DNA of 64,000 nucleotides from the NCBI RefSeq assembly GCF_014638915.1, contig NZ_BMFQ01000002.1, positions 744,001-808,000 on the forward strand. Reading direction: 5' to 3'. Shown one piece after another: positions 39,972 to 47,738 of this stretch (positions are counted from its first letter, which is position 1; each line of letters starts with the position of its first letter). The notes beneath the pieces were generated by a model, which was given only the letters and a program-made list of their open reading frames with translations, made no database searches and had not been told where the DNA came from. Origin of the DNA: Xanthomarina arctica. GTDB taxonomy: Bacteria; Bacteroidota; Bacteroidia; Flavobacteriales; Flavobacteriaceae. A program made the translations under genes and the position numbers.

Positions 39972-40568
39972 CTAATGTCTCTTTTTTAATTCTTTAATAA
40001 CATCTTCCATTTGAAACCCTTTGGCCTGAAGCAAAATTAAATAGTGAAACAGCAAATCTGCACTTTCGCTGATAAAAAGATCGTCATTATCATCTTTAGC
40101 TTCTATAACAACCTCTACAGCTTCCTCTCCTACTTTTTGAGCAATTTTATTCATGCCTTTTTCAAATAAGGATGCCACATAAGAATCTTCTGAAGATGAA
40201 TTTTCTTTTCTATCTTTTATAATATCTTCAAGTTGAGAAATAAAACCGAAGGTCTGCGTATTATCTTCATTCCAACAAGTATCCGATCCTTTATGACACG
40301 TTGGCCCGCTAGGATTAACTTGTATCAGTAAGGTGTCGTTATCGCAATCTAGTTTTATATCAACCAAACTTAAATAGTTACCACTCTCCTCACCTTTGGT
40401 CCACAGTCTTTTTTTGCTTCTACTATAAAAAGTTACTTTATTTAATTCTTTTGTTTTATTGAAAGCCTCTTCATTCATATAGCCCAACATCAAAACATTT
40501 TTTGTTTGAACATCTTGAATAATGGCTGGTACTAATCCGTCTATATTTTTATTAAAATCTATTTTCAT
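39972..40568 (-). CDS. hisIE: Bifunctional phosphoribosyl-AMP cyclohydrolase / phosphoribosyl-ATP pyrophosphatase
   Basis: Steps 2 and 3 of histidine synthesis in one 198-residue polypeptide. HisI part (about 1-105): TFYSRSKKRLWTKGEESGN, then metal-binding residues in the DCDNDTLLIQV segment and the CHKGSDTCW cysteines. HisE part (about 106-198): the EKGMNKIAQKVGEEAVEVVIEAKDDN helix-bundle motif. Last gene of the operon; its start overlaps the hisF stop by one base. Confidence 0.95.
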   Translation of the reverse strand: MKIDFNKNIDGLVPAIIQDVQTKNVLMLGYMNEEAFNKTKELNKVTFYSRSKKRLWTKGEESGNYLSLVDIKLDCDNDTLLIQVNPSGPTCHKGSDTCWNEDNTQTFGFISQLEDIIKDRKENSSSEDSYVASLFEKGMNKIAQKVGEEAVEVVIEAKDDNDDLFISESADLLFHYLILLQAKGFQMEDVIKELKKRH

Positions 40569-41323
40569 TACAATCTCACTTCTATGTTATTCTTTTTTAA
40601 TTCATTTTTTAAATCATTAATAGCAATTTCACCAAAATGAAATACGCTGGCTGCTAATGCGGCATCTGATTTCCCGATAGTAAACGCATCTACAAAATGC
40701 TGCATCTTTCCTGCTCCACCAGATGCGATTATAGGAATATTAAGTTCTTCAGAAAGCTTTTTTAAAGCTTGATTTGCAAACCCGTTTTTTGTTCCATCGT
40801 TATTCATAGATGTAAATAATATTTCTCCTCCGCCACGAGTTTCAACTTCTTTTGCCCATTCGAATAAATCCAATTCTGTTGGAATACTTCCGCCAGCGAT
40901 ATGAACAAGCCATTTATCATCTATTAATTTAGCATCTATAGCAACCACGACACACTGACTTCCGAATTTTTCAGATAATTCATTAATTAAATCTGGACGT
41001 TTAATAGCCGAGGAATTAATAGAAATTTTATCTGCGCCACATTTTAAAAGAGCTTCGACATCTGCAACTGAGGAAATACCTCCTCCAACGGTAAATGGAA
41101 TATTTATTTGTTCGGCGACTTTTAAAACCAACTCTAACATGGTTTTCCGACCTTCAAGAGTGGCAGAAATATCTAAAAAAACTAATTCGTCTGCACCATT
41201 CATGGCATATTGTTTTGCTAACTCAACGGGATCTCCTGCATCTCTTAAATCGACAAAATTGATACCTTTAACGGTTCTACCGTTTTTGATATCCAAACAT
41301 GGAATAATTCTTTTTGTAAGCAT
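40568..41323 (-). CDS. hisF: Imidazole glycerol phosphate synthase, cyclase subunit
   Basis: A (beta/alpha)8 cyclase of 251 residues that uses ammonia from HisH to close the imidazole ring, giving IGP and AICAR. Catalytic residues D11 (PCLDIKNGR) and D130 (VVAIDAK) are in place. The duplicated half-barrel structure is typical. It begins one base after the hisA stop; the gene pair with hisH forms the heterodimer. Confidence 0.96.
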
Positions 41324-42055
41324 TTAAAAATGTGTTTCTAAATCCTTTAAACTAATTTTTCCTTCGTAAAAAGCTTTTCCAATAATAACAGCTTCACACC
41401 CCATATCTTCTAATAAATTAAGATCTTCTATACAAGAAACACCGCCAGACGCTATTAACTTAACAGACTGTCCATTGCTATTTGAGCAAGAATCTATAAT
41501 TTTTTTATACAAATCTAATGACGGTCCTTCAAGCATACCATCTTTGGAAATATCTGTACAAATGACATATTGGATGCTCTTTTTTTGATAATTTTGAATA
41601 AAAGGAATCACTTCTAAAGCACTTTCCTCCTGCCAACCGCTGATAGCAATTTTTTCATTCATACAATCGGCTCCAAGGATTATCTTGGTTCCTCCATATT
41701 TTTCAAGCCAACCTTCAAACATTTTGGTATTATTTACGGCTATACTTCCGCCTGTAATTTGTTTTGCACCGGAATTGAAAGCAATATGTAAATCCTCATT
41801 GGATCTGATTCCACCACCAAAATCAATTTTCAAATTGGTTTTGGAAGCTATTTGTTCTAGAACCTTGAAATTAACAATTTGCTCTGCTTTTGCGCCATCT
41901 AAATCTACTAAATGTAAATACTCAATACCTGCGGCTTCAAATTGCTTAGCCACTTCTAAAGGGCTTTCATTATATATTTTTTTTGTGCTATAATCTCCTT
42001 TTGTTAACCTTACGCACTTTCCGTCAATGATATCTATTGCTGGTATGATTCTCAT
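41324..42055 (-). CDS. hisA: ProFAR isomerase (HisA)
   Basis: A TIM-barrel isomerase of 243 residues catalysing the Amadori rearrangement of ProFAR to PRFAR. D8 in [14 protein letters not shown] is the catalytic base, and [12 protein letters not shown] holds the second Asp near 130. It is a homologue of HisF. Only one base separates it from hisF and one base from hisH. Confidence 0.96.
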
Positions 42056-42056
42056 A

Positions 42057-42638
42057 TTATAATTCTAAAAAATTTTTTAATAATTGTTCTCCTGCATAAC
42101 TACTTTTTTCTGGATGAAATTGAACTCCATAAAAATTGTCTTTTTGTAAGGCTGATGAATAGATTTGGGAATAATTAGTAGTTGCTATAGCTTCTGGGCA
42201 AATTTCGGCATAATAACTATGTACAAGATACATATATTCATTATCAGAAATGCCATTAAAAAGCTTAGATTTTAAATTAGTTACAGTGTTCCATCCCATT
42301 TGTGGAACTTTTACCTGATTTGAAAATTGTTTTACAGAAACATTAAAAACACCTAAACCTTTTGTGTTCCCTTCTTCTGTATCATTACAGAGCAATTGCA
42401 TTCCTAAACAAATGCCTAATACTGGCTGTTTAAGCTGTGGAATAACAATTTCCAAACCGCTTCTATTAAGCATTTCCATGGCACTTTTAGCTTGGCCTAC
42501 ACCAGGAAAAACAACTTTATCTGCTTTTAATATATCTTCCCGATTATTAGTTAAAACAGCATCTATCCCCAAACGTTTAAAAGCAAATTGGATGCTTTTA
42601 ATGTTTCCTGCTCCATAATCTAAAATGACTAAATTCAT
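42057..42638 (-). CDS. hisH: Imidazole glycerol phosphate synthase, glutamine amidotransferase subunit
   Basis: A class I glutamine amidotransferase of 193 residues that supplies ammonia to HisF. The nucleophile is C77 in GICLGMQLL; the FHPEKS segment near the C-terminus gives the His and Glu of the triad. The DYGAGN start and VVFPGVG oxyanion segment are typical. It follows hisB after a 111-base spacer that contains a palindromic repeat element (42651-42745). Confidence 0.96.
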
Positions 42639-42650
42639 ATAATAGTTTTT

Positions 42651-42745
42651 TTTGTCATTCAGAGCACCATGCCTGCCGGCAGGCAGGAAGCGAAGAATCC
42701 ATTAATACAGAGATTCTTCAGTCGTACCTCCTTCTGAATGACAAA
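42651..42745. repeat. REP-like palindromic element inserted between hisB and hisH
   Basis: TTTGTCATTCAG (42651-42662) and CTGAATGACAAA (42734-42745) are perfect 12-base terminal inverted repeats of a 95-base element. Inside are a perfect 16-base palindrome TGCCTGCCGGCAGGCA (42670-42685) and an 8-base inverted repeat GAAGAATC (42692-42699) / GATTCTTC (42712-42719). Such compact, non-coding, multi-palindrome units with GTCATTC ends look like REP/MITE elements. The element lies inside the his operon and would fold as RNA. Confidence 0.7.
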
Positions 42746-42749
42746 ATAT

Positions 42750-43883
42750 TTATAAAAGACCCTTTGTTGATGGTAAAATCATCTTATCCACATCTCGTTT
42801 TACAGCCATTTTAATTGCTTTTGCAAAGGTTTTAAAAATGGCCTCAATTTTATGATGTTCATTAATTCCTTCCGCTTTAATATTCAAGTTGCATTTGGCT
42901 CCATCTGTAAAAGATTTAAAGAAATGGTAAAACATTTCTGTTGGCATCTTCCCAATCATTTCGCGCTTAAATTCCGCATCCCAAACCAACCAGTTTCTTC
43001 CACCAAAATCAATAGCTACCTGAGCTAAACAGTCGTCCATGGGTAAACAAAACCCATAACGCTCAATCCCTAATTTGTTGCCTAAGGTAGTAGCAAAAAT
43101 CTCGCCTAAAGCAATAGCAGTATCTTCAATAGTGTGGTGTTCGTCAACTTCTAAATCGCCTTCAACCTTGATGTTTAAATCTAATTGTCCGTGTCTAGCT
43201 ATTTGATCCAACATATGGTCGAAAAAAGCAATTCCTGTATCTATGTTACTTTGTCCGGCACCGTCTAGATTCAAATCTATTTTAATCTTAGTTTCATTGG
43301 TATTTCGTTCTATAGAACCCCTTCTTTCCTCGGTTTTTAAGAATGAATAAATTTCTTTCCAACTATTAGTTTCTAAAGCGATATATGGATCTAATTCCTC
43401 TCTTTTAACTGTAATTTCATTGGTTCCTAGATTGGTGTTGTCATTTATAAAAATGCCTTTAGATCCTAAATTTCTAGCTAATTCGATATCAGTTAAACGA
43501 TCTCCAATGACAAACGAGTTTTCTAAATCGTATGCTTCTGAAAAATATTGCGTTAACAACCCTGTATTAGGTTTCCTAGTTGGCGCATTATCTTTTGCAA
43601 AAGTTCTATCAATAAATTGTTCTTTAAATGAAACACCTTCAGCTTGAAACGCTTTTAATATGAAATTGTGCACTGGCCAAAACGTGTTCTCAGGATATAC
43701 TTTAGTTCCCAAACCATCTTGATTGGTAATCATGACGATTTCAAAATCCAATTCCTTGGCTATACGACCTAAGTATTGAAACACGTTTGGATAAAATTCT
43801 AGTTTTTCAAACGAATCAATTTGTTCGTCTGCAGGTTCTTTTATAATGGTTCCATCTCTATCTATAAAAAGTACTTTTTTCAT
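42750..43883 (-). CDS. hisB: Bifunctional histidinol-phosphatase / imidazoleglycerol-phosphate dehydratase
   Basis: A 377-residue fusion enzyme for two steps of histidine synthesis. The N-terminal HAD phosphatase (about 1-170) has DRDGT (D8, D10) and the MITNQDGLG segment. The C-terminal dehydratase (about 182-377) shows metal-binding histidines in [26 protein letters not shown] and INEHHKIEA. The gene starts 43 bases downstream of the remains of a GIY-YIG gene that separates it from hisC. Confidence 0.96.
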
Positions 43884-43902
43884 AATTAACTTGTTAATTA
43901 AC

Positions 43903-43919
43903 CCTGAACTAGTTTCAGG
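43903..43919. repeat. Left flanking palindrome of the GIY-YIG insertion
   Basis: CCTGAAC-TAGTTTCAGG is a near-palindrome sharing the CCTGAA/TTCAGG core with the sequence at 44251-44267 on the other side of the GIY-YIG pseudogene. It lies just inside the hisB side of the interrupted hisC-hisB junction. Confidence 0.45.
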
Positions 43920-43926
43920 ATCTTTT

Positions 43927-44214
43927 TTAATAATTTTCTAATGTTTCTTTATTAGGATTTGTAATCTTTATTAGGTTCCATTTCCAATCCTTATGCCAAT
44001 TCTTTAATTGTTTTTCTCTGTCTTTAGCGTCTTTTTTGGTTTCATACACTTCAAAATACACTAGATCCTGCACACTGTATTTTTTAGTAAATACAGCTCC
44101 TTTTCCTTACCTATGTTGTTCAATCCTAATCTTTAAATTTTCTGTATATCCAATATATAAAACAGTTCTGTTTTTATTTGTTAGTATATAACAGTAGAAT
44201 TTATCTGGCTCCAT
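43927..44214 (-). pseudogene. GIY-YIG endonuclease gene, broken by an in-frame stop codon
   Basis: On the minus strand, ATG at 44214 opens a 96-codon frame for a small GIY-YIG nuclease (UPF0213/YhbQ-like): FYCYILTN, LYIGYTENLKIRIEQH, FTKKY and REKQLKNW. Codon 36 (44109-44107) is TAA, where relatives have an amino acid between H-x and G-x-G. No other frameshift is visible, so a single base change probably inactivated it. It sits between hisC and hisB, breaking their spacing to 379 bases, and is flanked by two related palindromes (43903-43919 and 44251-44267). Most likely an inserted mobile nuclease gene of a kind repeated in Flavobacteriaceae genomes. Confidence 0.82.
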
Positions 44215-44250
44215 TTTTTTTTTTAAATCTATAATTTTATTATTAAGGCT

Positions 44251-44267
44251 CCTGAAACGAATTCAGG
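44251..44267. repeat. Right flanking palindrome of the GIY-YIG insertion, containing the hisC stop
   Basis: CCTGAA-ACGAA-TTCAGG (44251-44256 and 44262-44267) is an inverted repeat whose core matches that at 43903-43919. The hisC stop codon (44265-44263) lies within it, so the insertion boundary appears to supply the last codon of hisC. Confidence 0.45.
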
Positions 44268-45315
44268 ATTTCGAAATTGATTGAAGTGTTTCAAACAATT
44301 TCTCATTTTCTGCTTTTGTTCCAACCGTTAAACGCAAACAATTATCACAACCTAACTGATTGGTTCTGTTTCTAATAACAATATTATCATCTATTAATTG
44401 TTTATATCTTAAGTTGGCATCATCTACTTTTATAAGTATAAAATTGGCATCAGACGGATAAATTTTTGAAATAAATTTTATAGTATTTAACTGAGGTATT
44501 AACTTATCTCTTTCCAGTTTTATTTGGTTAATTTCAGAAATGACTTCAAGATATTTGGTTAATCTTTTCAAGGCGGAAATTTGAGTTAAACTATTGACAT
44601 TATATGGTGGCTTTATTTTATTCAGAATAGCTATAATTTCTAATGAAGCATAGCAAACTCCAAGTCTAATTCCCGCCAAACCATAAGCTTTTGAGAAGGT
44701 CTGAGTAATAATTAAATTTGGAAATTCTTCTAATCTTTTCAACCAGCTTTCTTTTTCTGAAAAATCAATATAGGCTTCATCTAGTACAACAATCCCTGAA
44801 AACTTTTTAAGTAATTCTTCAACTTGAGAAATCTCAAAAGTATTTCCTGTTGGGTTATTAGGAGAACATAAAAATAAGATTTTCGCATGAGATACTTCTA
44901 AAATTTGAGTTACCTGGGGTTGAAATGTATCAGACAAAGGTACTTCTACAAAATCAACAGAATTTATGTTCGCTAAAACCTCGTACATCCCATAAGTTGG
45001 TGGTAACGTTATGACTTTATCTAAATTTGGTTCGCAAAAAGCTCGAAGGATTAGATCTAAAACTTCATCGCTACCATTCCCTAAAAGGATGTTTTGGGTA
45101 GCCACATTTTTTATTTTTGAAAGTTCCAATTTCACGAGTGACTGTTTTGGATCTGGATACCGGTTCATGCCATTGTCAAACGGGTTCTCGTTGGCATCCA
45201 AAAACACCATATTGTCAAAAACTTCCTGATACTCATCTCTTGCAGACGAATAAGGCTTTAGTTTTTTGATGTTTTCTCTTACCAAATTATCAATATTAAA
45301 TACTTCTTTTTCCAT
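44263..45315 (-). CDS. hisC: Histidinol-phosphate aminotransferase
   Basis: A 350-residue PLP-dependent fold type I aminotransferase converting imidazole-acetol phosphate into histidinol phosphate. The Schiff-base lysine is K209 in TQTFSKAYGLAGIRLG. LDANENPF, NPTG (in SPNNPTGN) and GNGSDEV are substrate/PLP-binding segments. The gene begins 4 bases after the hisD stop. Its last codons run into the boundary of the GIY-YIG insertion, which may have changed the C-terminus slightly. Confidence 0.95.
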   Translation of the reverse strand: MEKEVFNIDNLVRENIKKLKPYSSARDEYQEVFDNMVFLDANENPFDNGMNRYPDPKQSLVKLELSKIKNVATQNILLGNGSDEVLDLILRAFCEPNLDKVITLPPTYGMYEVLANINSVDFVEVPLSDTFQPQVTQILEVSHAKILFLCSPNNPTGNTFEISQVEELLKKFSGIVVLDEAYIDFSEKESWLKRLEEFPNLIITQTFSKAYGLAGIRLGVCYASLEIIAILNKIKPPYNVNSLTQISALKRLTKYLEVISEINQIKLERDKLIPQLNTIKFISKIYPSDANFILIKVDDANLRYKQLIDDNIVIRNRTNQLGCDNCLRLTVGTKAENEKLFETLQSISKS

Positions 45316-45319
45316 TTGA

Positions 45320-46639
45320 CTACTGATTTTCTATGTTAGAAATTCCTACTTCCCCAGGAAGTATATCTTTTAATCTAATAGAAACTGCATTTTTATGAGC
45401 TTGTAACCCTTCTGCTTCTGCCATTAACTCAATAGTATTCCCAATATTTATTAAACCTTCTTTCGATATTTTTTGAAACGTAATGCTTTTGTTAAAACTA
45501 TCTAAATTCACTCCGGAATAAGACTTACTAAATCCGTTAGTAGGAAGGGTATGATTGGTTCCAGAAGCATAATCTCCAGCACTTTCGGGGGTGTAATTTC
45601 CAATAAACACAGAACCTGCATTTATAATATTATCCAAATAAAAATCTTCGTTTTTTGTGCAAATTATAAAGTGTTCTGGAGCGTAGTCATTAATTAAATC
45701 CATAGCGTCTTCATCACTTTCCAAATAGATGAATTTTGAATTCGAAATCGCTTTTTCGGCCATATCTTTTCTTGGTAATTCCTTAATTTGCTTCGTTATT
45801 TCCATTTGAACTTCTTCTATAAGATCTTTGGAAGTTGAAACCAGAATAACCTGACTGTCTGAACCATGTTCTGCCTGACTTAATAAATCTGAAGCTACAT
45901 AACTTGCATTAGCCGAATCATCGGCAACCACTAAGAGTTCACTTGGTCCAGCAGGCATATCGATTGCGACTCCAAATTTGGTTGCCAACTGCTTAGCGAC
46001 GGTTACAAACTGATTTCCTGGTCCAAATATTTTATAAACTTTAGGAATGGTTTCAGTTCCAAAGGTTAAACCTGCAATGGCTTGGATACCTCCTACTTTA
46101 AAGATTTTAGTGATACCACATAATTCTGCGGTATATAAAATTTCGTTTGCAATATTTCCTTCCTTATTTGGCGGCGTACACAAAATAATTTCTTTACAAC
46201 CTGCAATTTTAGCTGGAATAGCCAACATTAAAACAGTTGAAAATAAAGGCGCTGTTCCGCCTGGAATATATAATCCTATTTTTTCTATAGGTCTTTTTTC
46301 CTGCCAACATATAACACCTTGCGTTGTTTCCACTTCCACTTTTTCCGTTTTTTGTGTTAAGTGAAACTTTTCAATATTATCTTTCGCTCTATTTATGGCA
46401 ATTTTTAATTCGGTTGAAATTTCTTTTAAAGCTTTTTCAAATGAAGTTCTAGTTACAATATTTGAGTCTAAAATCACACCATCAAACAATTGGGTGTATT
46501 TTGAGATGGCTTTGTCTCCATTTCTTTTTACATCATCAAAAACCTGATTGACCGTGTCTTCTAAATTTTCTACCTTCTGTGTTGGCCGTTGTAATAAAAC
46601 TGACCAATCTTCCCTTTTAGGGTTTATTATACTTTTCAT
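45320..46639 (-). CDS. hisD: Histidinol dehydrogenase
   Basis: A zinc-dependent, NAD-linked enzyme of 439 residues for the last two oxidations of histidine synthesis. GPGNQFVTVAKQLAT, the AGPSELLVVAD block, the PEHFIIC segment and the TNHTLPTNG segment (with zinc- and substrate-binding residues) are visible. The length is usual. It overlaps the hisG stop by 4 bases. Confidence 0.96.
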   Translation of the reverse strand: MKSIINPKREDWSVLLQRPTQKVENLEDTVNQVFDDVKRNGDKAISKYTQLFDGVILDSNIVTRTSFEKALKEISTELKIAINRAKDNIEKFHLTQKTEKVEVETTQGVICWQEKRPIEKIGLYIPGGTAPLFSTVLMLAIPAKIAGCKEIILCTPPNKEGNIANEILYTAELCGITKIFKVGGIQAIAGLTFGTETIPKVYKIFGPGNQFVTVAKQLATKFGVAIDMPAGPSELLVVADDSANASYVASDLLSQAEHGSDSQVILVSTSKDLIEEVQMEITKQIKELPRKDMAEKAISNSKFIYLESDEDAMDLINDYAPEHFIICTKNEDFYLDNIINAGSVFIGNYTPESAGDYASGTNHTLPTNGFSKSYSGVNLDSFNKSITFQKISKEGLINIGNTIELMAEAEGLQAHKNAVSIRLKDILPGEVGISNIENQ

Positions 46640-47493
46640 ATTACCATGTTTTCAATTGGACACACTAGAATTCCTTGAGCTCCATGCAATTTTAATTCAT
46701 CAATAACTTCCCAAAAGTCATTTTTATCAATTACAGAATGTAAAGAACTCCAACCCACTTCCGCTAAAGGTAATATAGTAGGACTTTTCATTCCAGGTAG
46801 TACTTTTATGATATCTGGGATTTTATCATTTGGAGCATTTAACAGGATATATTTAGATTGTCGCCCTTTTAAAACAGATTGAAACCTAAATTTTAATTTG
46901 TCTAAAATCTTTTGGTTTTCAGAAGAAATTAAAGGTGAAACAGCTAAAACAGCTTCAGAGTTTAAAAGCACTTCAACTTCTTTTAAATTGTTTTTAAATA
47001 AGGTACTTCCACTTGAAACAATATCAACAATAGCATCTGCAAGTCCGATATTAGGAGCAATTTCTACAGAACCATTAATAATATGAAGTTGTGCCTCAAT
47101 CTTGTTTTTTAATAAAAACTGGTTGACCGTGTTTGGATACGATGTAGCTATCCGCTTACCTTGTAAATCTTGCACAGATTTAAACTTTGTTGATTTTGGA
47201 ACAGCAAGAGAAACTTTACATGTTGAAAAGCCCAGTTTTTCTACAATTGCTATATCATTTCCTTTTTCAATTAAAATATTTTCTCCAATAATAGCGGCAT
47301 CTACAACGCCATCTCGAAGGTATTGCGGAATATCTCCATTACGTAGGTAAAACACTTCGATTGGAAAATTTTTAGCTGAAGCTTTTAATTGGTCTTTCCC
47401 ATTTTCTATTGAAATTCCCACATCTTTTAGGATTTTCATGGAGTCCTCGTGAAGACGACCCGATTTTTGAACTGCAATTTTTAGTTTACTCAT
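46636..47493 (-). CDS. hisG: ATP phosphoribosyltransferase (long form)
   Basis: The first enzyme of the pathway, 285 residues, of the long (HisG_L) form. The phosphoribosyl-binding segment is around SSGSTL (about 162-167), and the C-terminal 75 residues form the ACT-like domain for feedback inhibition by histidine. The start lies 59 bases after the attenuator terminator and 121 bases after the leader peptide stop. Expression thus depends on the attenuator. Confidence 0.96.
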   Translation of the reverse strand: MSKLKIAVQKSGRLHEDSMKILKDVGISIENGKDQLKASAKNFPIEVFYLRNGDIPQYLRDGVVDAAIIGENILIEKGNDIAIVEKLGFSTCKVSLAVPKSTKFKSVQDLQGKRIATSYPNTVNQFLLKNKIEAQLHIINGSVEIAPNIGLADAIVDIVSSGSTLFKNNLKEVEVLLNSEAVLAVSPLISSENQKILDKLKFRFQSVLKGRQSKYILLNAPNDKIPDIIKVLPGMKSPTILPLAEVGWSSLHSVIDKNDFWEVIDELKLHGAQGILVCPIENMVI

Positions 47494-47552
47494 TATTTGT
47501 TTAATAATGTTTGAGTAAATCTTTTCGGAAAGAAATTTCTGTTTTTAGAAAC

Positions 47553-47586
47553 AAAAAACCCGCTTGATTAACTCAAACGGGTTTTT
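47553..47586 (-). terminator. Attenuator terminator of the his operon
   Basis: On the minus strand, AAAAACCCGTTTGA (47586-47573) pairs with TCAAGCGGGTTTTTT (47567-47553), one G-U pair in the stem, with a U-run. It lies between the leader peptide and hisG. The seven bases TCAAGCG of its 3' arm also occur in the leader peptide coding region (47627-47621), where they can pair with the 5' arm CGTTTGA instead and prevent termination. Confidence 0.8.
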
Positions 47587-47614
47587 AAATATGTTGATTT
47601 TATTCAATACATTT

Positions 47615-47671
47615 TCAGCTCGCTTGAATGCCAGAATGAAAATGATGATGATGTGATTGAATAAATGTCAT
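47615..47671 (-). CDS. hisL: Histidine operon leader peptide
   Basis: An 18-residue open frame MTFIQSHHHHFHSGIQAS, stop TGA at 47617-47615. Five of residues 7-12 are histidine (four in a row, then F, H), all CAT codons. It precedes the terminator by 28 bases and hisG by 121 bases, exactly the arrangement of a ribosome-mediated attenuator. When histidyl-tRNA is scarce, ribosomes stall at codons 7-12 and leave TCAAGCG (codons 15-17) free to pair with the terminator's 5' arm. When it is plentiful the ribosome moves to the stop and covers that segment, so the terminator forms. Confidence 0.82.
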   Translation of the reverse strand: MTFIQSHHHHFHSGIQAS

Positions 47672-47738
47672 GTTCTTTTTTTGTGAGTACAAATATTGTA
47701 AATAATTATTTAGAATTCCTAAACAATTATTATATTTT

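Follow-up and report, generated by a model that had tools for sequence, protein, structure and literature searches.

The question raised by this locus is how the DNA between a short histidine-rich reading frame and hisG may control the his operon of Xanthomarina arctica. The locus lies on contig NZ_BMFQ01000002.1, in the 64-kb window (the whole stretch of DNA analysed), with the leader and the his genes on the minus strand. The first operon gene, hisG (46636..47493, minus strand; TIGR00070, 190 bits), has its ATG at 47493-47491, and its start reads AUG AGU AAA. The remaining genes are hisD, hisC, bifunctional hisB, hisH, hisA, hisF and hisIE (39972..46639, minus strand). HisG, HisD, HisC and bifunctional HisB were matched by NCBIfam models. 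The genes past hisB encode a glutamine amidotransferase domain, two His_biosynth domains and PRA-CH/PRA-PH domains, and the putative names hisH, hisA, hisF and hisIE were assigned from domains and gene order. The NCBIfam matches together with the expected downstream domains identify the locus as the head of a his operon. A gene for an SPFH/Band 7 protein lies upstream of the leader.

The leader ORF, MTFIQSHHHHFHSGIQAS followed by a TGA stop (47615..47671, minus strand; ATG at 47671-47669, TGA at 47617-47615), has 18 codons, five of which, at residues 7, 8, 9, 10 and 12, are histidine codons. The terminator AAAAACCCGTTTGA-GTTAA-TCAAGCGGGTTTTT (47586-47554, minus strand) has 14 pairs and begins 28 nt past the leader stop. 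The heptamer TCAAGCG occurs at 47627-47621 and again at 47567-47561, and its complement CGTTTGA at 47579-47573. The initial annotation had described the frame with five His codons at residues 7-12, the terminator with hisG beyond it, and the two heptamers with their complement; the frame was recovered base for base, and the other elements lie exactly where it had placed them. The leader start codon is ATG in 201 of 204 flavobacterial-type leaders. Between the SPFH/Band 7 gene and the leader, 18 nt upstream of the leader ATG, stands the box AATATTTG (47690..47697, minus strand), which we take to resemble a promoter box of the Bacteroidetes type, the consensus of which is TAnnTTTG. A (T/A)AnnTTTG box is present upstream of the His run in 152/204 flavobacterial-type and 35/44 other leaders, compared to 15.9% and 10.9%, respectively, in shuffles.

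These features are widely conserved. HisG was searched for in three overlapping sets: 40 genomes of the same and related genera, families and order (27 with hisG), 149 family genomes (123 with hisG) and 198 class genomes (87 with hisG). The loci L001-L201 yielded 198 regions, two of them repeats, after removal of L028 (not hisG), L147 and L184 (no start found); the family genomes G086 and G133 were left out of the reading, together with some of the 87 class genomes, chiefly those whose matches were the most divergent or fragmentary. Relatives lacking the His codons or the terminator would, according to the initial annotation, refute attenuation; the comparison did not bear this out. The hisG upstream regions from Flavobacteriaceae and other Bacteroidia contain a His-rich ORF in 190/198 cases, a terminator in 185/198 and both in 182/198. 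In a second set, taken from named genomes (80 loci, one of which, L264, has no upstream DNA; 9/79 duplicate one of the 198), the leader was found in 78/79 and the terminator in 77/79 regions. When a His-rich ORF is required to be no longer than 45 aa and to contain three or more His residues that make up 12% or more of the peptide, such frames are present in 247 of 264 unique 290-nt regions preceding hisG and in 79 of 1320 shuffled ones (6%); ORFs with HHH or HH-(0-2)-HH occur in 229/264 and 12/1320, respectively. The number of His codons changes in frame among relatives.

Within the sample read, leader-peptide attenuation would be the usual control before hisG. In the phylum-wide sample hisG was found in 171/198 genomes; 40 loci, some of them within the class, were read, and 37 had a usable hisG start. 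Outside the class, His-rich leaders were observed in families f86, f94 and f104, with f91 equivocal; among the 40 loci read, no convincing His-rich leader was found in families f84, f88, f95 and f99. The locus L316, from a genome labelled as another class (G490), carries a hisG of the flavobacterial type (63% identical) preceded by a leader and a terminator of the same type, and may reflect transfer or a misassigned contig. Some other Bacteroidia (L187, L190, L319, L339) have quite different His leaders, e.g. MNPQAKNIAIFCSHHHQVHVHHFHHSS or MNNALIINNHHHHHVSNTIRGRFMF. No terminator was detected in L187 and L190, and thus control at the level of translation is possible there.

Candidate pairing segments are spread along the leader: A lies before the His codons, after which come B, A', C, T and D, with hisG last. 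Segment A TTTATTCAAT (47656..47665, minus strand) and segment A' ATTGAATAAA (47599..47608, minus strand) form the 5' and 3' arms of a candidate hairpin enclosing the His codons and B; this 10-bp inverted repeat was absent from the initial annotation. Segment B ATTCAAGCG (47621..47629, minus strand), the candidate antiterminator, lies within the last leader codons. Segment C (47566..47586, minus strand) comprises the terminator 5' arm (47586-47573), the loop (47572-47568) and the top of the 3' arm, and is complementary to B at 47579-47571; segment T (47554..47567, minus strand) is the terminator 3' arm and runs into the T tract. The region 47690-47540 has a folding z of -5.5 relative to 200 dinucleotide shuffles, and 47494-47680 holds only three inverted repeats of at least 9 nt, namely the terminator, A:A' and C:D.

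The pairings were followed in alignment A2, which contains 109 of 177 non-redundant leaders; it was chosen after D had been seen, excludes many divergent leaders and many in which D and the ATG are about 45 nt apart, and keeps some D-less leaders. The terminator helix C:T is paired in 90.0% of cells, with a covariation score of 0.157. B:C is paired in 91.5% of cells, with covariation of 0.131 against at most 0.083 for slid versions. Segment C varies little, as it must serve several partners, and thus the covariation of B:C is modest. A:A' is paired in 74.1% of cells, and its weak covariation is not above that of slid versions (64 cells changed on both sides, compared to 80 and 73). A model of the 109 leaders (R1) gave a strong full-length match (E < 1e-5) in 16 of 25 genomes, once in each and adjoining hisG, the next-best match being partial (7e-4); the scan scored 114 first-look candidates per genome, and weaker copies could escape. 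A strong R1 match was absent from the eight of these 25 genomes in which hisG had not been detected, and from G032 despite its hisG.

The role of the leader copy of TCAAGCG as antiterminator, suggested in the initial annotation, agrees with the conserved pairing, with the permutation test and with the geometry. The test covered all flavobacterial-type regions that then had a leader and a terminator, 136 for B and 135 for D, and shared ancestry is still present in its statistics. The energy of the own B with C was -13.40 versus -12.14 for permuted B (sd 0.15, n=136); in other Bacteroidia, which have different terminators, it was -13.57 versus -11.16 (sd 0.42, n=44). C is of low variability, and the own B ranks in the best 5% for just 7/136 leaders. 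By median, the start of B lies 21 nt beyond the first His codon, with 15.5 nt remaining to the stop codon. Given the usual ribosome footprint, B would stay accessible while a ribosome is halted at the first His codons, and would be masked by one standing at the stop; by its position, B is both exclusive with the terminator and placed for stalling control.

Three situations may be distinguished. When His-tRNA is ample, the ribosome would reach the stop codon and cover B, and C:T would terminate transcription. Under His-tRNA starvation, the ribosome would stall on the His codons, opening A:A' and freeing B, and B:C would let the polymerase pass. If the leader is not translated, A:A' would hide B and the terminator would form. 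No other reading of the leader comes near that of a ribosome-mediated his attenuator, which we consider very probable. The alternative of a His-rich ORF that senses nothing, followed by an ordinary, partial terminator ahead of hisG, is hardly credible: the His runs and the B:C pairing are conserved, and the count of His codons varies in frame.

Other amino-acid operons of the own genome and its relatives also have candidate leaders. All twelve trpE loci (L354-L365) contain a small ORF with consecutive Trp codons, eleven with WWW and one with WW; a terminator was detected in 10/12, the own genome not being among them, and the own-genome leader (L355, G000:C3) is MNTILNHTWWWNFRNLHS. They are likely Trp attenuators. 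The prephenate dehydratase loci (L342-L353; own genome L347, G000:C1) have a Phe-rich small ORF, with FFF in 10/12, followed by a detected terminator in 8 of these 10, and are likely Phe attenuators. A counterpart of segment D was sought in the trpE and pheA leaders and rejected, as nothing comparable was present. For ilvD, six of seven loci have no convincing leader; the seventh, L374, has an Ile/Leu-rich small ORF, MRVNNVILSIIILLCQL, with no terminator detected.

Beyond the parts of an attenuator, the leader contains a fifth segment, D (GATTTACTCAAAC; 47509..47521, minus strand), situated between the terminator and hisG. It may pair with C and its loop at 47578-47566, with one T-T mismatch. 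The resulting inverted repeat (47566-47578 / 47509-47521) spans 13 nt, is 92% complementary, has its arms 44 nt apart, and was absent from the initial annotation. By a shuffle test (p <=0.01, energy <=-9), D was detected in 136/206 flavobacterial-type leaders and 0/45 leaders of other Bacteroidia; four D-bearing class-level leaders (L149, L166, L180, L188) joined the flavobacterial-type group after D had been seen, and would otherwise make it 4/49 elsewhere, not 0/45. The energy of C with its own D is -13.54 versus -9.51 for permuted D (sd 0.21, n=135, shared ancestry again included), the own D being in the best 5% for 44/135 leaders. No difference was seen in other Bacteroidia (-4.75 own, -4.83 permuted).

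In A2, C:D is paired in 89.4% of cells. Its covariation of 0.326 (0.192 when shuffled, at most 0.099 when slid) is double the terminator's value, and a large share of the variation falls in loop columns that do not belong to the terminator stem. For instance, the loop pair 160:235 is AU in 38 leaders, UA in 38, UG in 11, CG in 9 and unpaired in 12. On a tree of the 68 hisG genes from those A2 rows that have full hisG, 15 same-branch changes of C and D were counted, 11 of them pair-to-pair, against 4.3 expected. Two further measures, which resist shared ancestry, are both weak: pairs changed on both sides number 7, compared to 6.0 when shuffled (89/500 shuffles reach 7), and further pair types number 24, compared to 20.4 (7/500 shuffles reach 24). 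With good confidence, C:D may be considered a selected RNA pairing; by sequence and comparison, B:C, C:T and C:D are mutually exclusive helices conserved in evolution.

A pair of such complementarity at this short distance might also be an inverted repeat acting as DNA, either as an operator of a dimeric regulator or as a product of template switching with no RNA function, and the G-U cells alone are insufficient to exclude this. However, the sequence of the pair varies across species while the complementarity stays, whereas an operator would keep its sequence, and the trpE and pheA leaders of the relatives have no comparable repeat (the best, in L357, has -11.0 kcal/mol, p 0.03). This explanation is very unlikely.

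The distance from the end of D to the hisG ATG has a median of 16 nt (quartiles 15-17) in the 136 leaders, whereas the gap between the terminator and D is less uniform (quartiles 19-27). The D-ATG spacing is tight only in bulk: in 20/136 leaders the gap is below 8 or above 26 nt, and its full sd of 8.9 is not below the sd of 7.6 for the terminator-D gap. Nevertheless, the tighter spacing in bulk favours hisG translation over the terminator as the target of D. D can act only in the read-through RNA. The best fold contains C:D in 88 and C:T in 86 of 174 leaders (those with C:D duplex energy <=-11, repeats kept), and enforcing C:D costs 2.4 kcal/mol on average; in the window species, where C:D has one mismatch, C:T is preferred. 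The two helices are thus predicted to be near in energy, and T would emerge before D in the course of transcription.

Some leaders deviate in this interval. Ten of the 13 leaders with D 36-50 nt from the ATG (L008, L032, L054, L205, L206, L207, L222, L231, L254, L270) contain a small hairpin, e.g. ACCCACTTTCGTGGG, between D and the hisG ATG, ending about 5-9 nt before the ATG. In the D-less leaders L105, L106, L108-L110, L114, L115, L119, L121, L122, L125 and L128, the end of the terminator stem is 8-27 nt from the hisG ATG; several of them come from genomes of about 1.3-2.2 Mb, and D may have been lost from these short-spaced leaders through streamlining.

In this group of bacteria, translation starts largely without Shine-Dalgarno pairing. 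The putative target of D in hisG is the start codon: TTTACTCA within D (47519-47512) matches the complement of TGAGTAAA at the hisG start (47492-47485) without a mismatch. Of the 136 D-bearing leaders, 123 were examined for a perfect complement that overlaps the AUG and is 6 nt or longer; it is present in 25/36 leaders with the GAGTAAATC loop, 27/28 with the GAGACAATC loop and 22/59 with other loops, versus 4/70 D-less flavobacterial-type leaders, 0/45 other Bacteroidia and 3.5-5% of shuffles. The two main loop classes differ in its origin. In the GAGTAAATC class the start complement follows from the fit of D to C and the likeness of the C loop to the hisG start. This is not so in the GAGACAATC class, where the complement is ACTCAT at the 3' edge of D; D itself was rejected as the partner of the start there, since the fit is just -4.35 kcal/mol (26 leaders), compared to -11.0 in the GAGTAAATC class (43 leaders).

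Among leaders whose hisG encodes Met-Ser-Thr or Met-Ser-Ile at its start, some show an accompanying change of the C loop and D (L118, L138, L310 and L312; L137; also L307 and L309) and others do not (L308, L311 and L314); in L311, C and D changed together while the hisG start remained the same. The first two bases of hisG codon 3 coincide with the C loop in 56/67 leaders, against a permutation mean of 45 and a maximum of 52 (5000 permutations), a comparison in which shared ancestry is included.

The folding calculations give a mixed picture of the start codon. When C:D is enforced instead of C:T, the openness of the AUG is higher in 66/93 leaders and lower in 4, rising from 0.36 to 0.63 (36 leaders), from 0.09 to 0.32 (22) and from 0.35 to 0.57 (35), which is partly so by construction. 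With the terminator set aside, the 106 D-bearing leaders with an ATGAGT start of hisG have a mean AUG openness of 0.27, compared to 0.41 in shuffles, and 7/106 rank within the lowest 5% when each is compared to its shuffles (5 expected); for the region -12..+12 of the same leaders, 15/106 do, with equal means of 0.54. The window leader has an AUG openness of 0.06, compared to 0.40 in shuffles (rank 0.13). The 30 D-bearing leaders without an ATGAGT start have no lock on average (0.44 versus 0.43; 5/30 in the lowest 5%), and a lock of the start codon general to all D-bearing leaders was rejected, as it is unsupported outside hisG genes starting with ATGAGT. Since the lock is weak relative to shuffles and absent where the ATGAGT start is absent, our confidence both in a translational role and in the complete mechanism below is limited: that C:D acts on hisG translation is quite possible, with doubt slightly the stronger side.

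The same observations bear on a simpler view, in which the leader is a plain his attenuator and D pairs with C in cis for some other purpose, such as unfolding of the terminator, or protection or processing of an mRNA end. C:D has a wider occurrence than the start-codon complement, in line with this view: the missing average lock in the 30 leaders would be expected then, as would the 37/59 D-bearing mixed-loop leaders without a 6-nt start complement. The nearly fixed bulk distance from D to the ATG, with no such constancy towards the terminator, and the rarity of the start complement in D-less leaders speak against it, and we consider it somewhat unlikely.

It is also conceivable that the terminated leader RNA, with an estimated size of ~120-130 nt, works in trans, its loop and upper arm pairing with D on the his mRNA and repressing or stabilising the latter. 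The pairing is indeed centred on the terminator loop and does not reach the CCC of the stem: only 2/109 leaders have G in column 243. The Sinorhizobium trp attenuator RNA itself reportedly acts in trans too. So does another attenuator product, the leader peptide peTrpL of Sinorhizobium, according to the accessible part of PMC7298713. However, the own genome contains 21 matches with at most one mismatch, D and C included, against 31 for a reversed control pattern; the sole other exact match of D falls inside a 291-aa ORF; and the cis partner, just 44 nt away, is favoured by proximity. Action in trans is thus improbable. D as a wider trans motif was rejected, the own genome having no enrichment.

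Returning to translational control in cis, the evidence is evenly balanced for a his attenuator with an added fifth RNA segment, D, that acts as a two-step gate combining transcription attenuation with control of hisG translation. In its full form, C would be reused after read-through to keep D off the hisG start, the terminator loop copying TGAGTAAA in many species. In read-through RNA with C in the terminator hairpin, D would be free, and in the window species as well as in many relatives it could then bind the start codon of hisG; in read-through RNA with C:D, the start codon would be released. Leaky read-through would then stay poorly translated, and starvation read-through would be translated. 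We put this full form forward tentatively, as a proposal that is more doubtful than the preceding one. If true, it would amount to proofreading of read-through in a ribosome-mediated attenuator: a single amino-acid signal would lead one RNA strand through two consecutive decisions, with the terminator loop as a mimic of a start codon. The conserved segment D makes a coupling of transcription attenuation to first-gene translation amenable to testing.

The enterobacterial his attenuator consists of a run of His codons, a leader hairpin, an antiterminator and an intrinsic terminator before hisG. The leader in the window has the same parts and the same logic as this attenuator (RF00514). To our knowledge, the enterobacterial his leader has nothing that corresponds to segment D or to the start-codon complement. 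Membership in RF00514 was rejected, matches being below the threshold and non-specific: the leader scores 31.1 bits at 47651-47549, below the gathering score of 49, another place in the own genome scores 31.3 bits (with 100 of 222 candidates scored), and no match at the cut-off was found in the own genome and 20 relatives. Neither a T-box nor any other Rfam riboswitch family reaches its threshold anywhere in the 64-kb window.

The closest published description is a 2021 transcriptome study of Flavobacterium psychrophilum (PMC9723704), which, in its available parts, describes strong indications that amino-acid operons are under leader-peptide attenuation. It also names two structured elements: one before hisG, conserved, without an Rfam match and present in other Flavobacteriaceae genera too, and one before pheA. 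The hisG element is very probably the same as the leader considered here; as described in those parts, it comes without segments, antiterminator pairing or segment D. The initial annotation knew of no described leader of this form in the phylum; this needs correcting, since flavobacterial leader-peptide attenuation and the element before hisG have both been mentioned in PMC9723704. The accessible text of PMC2965389 gives leader peptides as known only in Proteobacteria and Actinobacteria, and then newly in Firmicutes. The passages of PMC9413887 and PMC8305728 that treat his regulation or his genes describe no Bacteroidota leaders, and PMC4833913, as far as accessible, counts leader genes by distance, with Bacteroidetes included. 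The His leader peptides of Firmicutes, identified by comparative genomics (PMC9413887, PMC2965389; passages available), likewise combine a His-rich peptide, a terminator and an antiterminator before histidine-related genes, but in another phylum and in few lineages of it. In some attenuators a structure sequestering the ribosome-binding site replaces the terminator, and the available passages do not mention both in one leader (PMC9413887). In the part of the open full-text literature that was read, no mention of a segment like D was found. The attenuator as such is thus partly in print, and the conserved segment D is the new part.

In the trp leader of Bacillus subtilis, TRAP causes termination and, in read-through RNA, sequestration of the Shine-Dalgarno sequence. 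The two-step logic, attenuation followed by control of first-gene translation, would be the same as that proposed here, but the sensor there is an RNA-binding protein and not a stalled ribosome.
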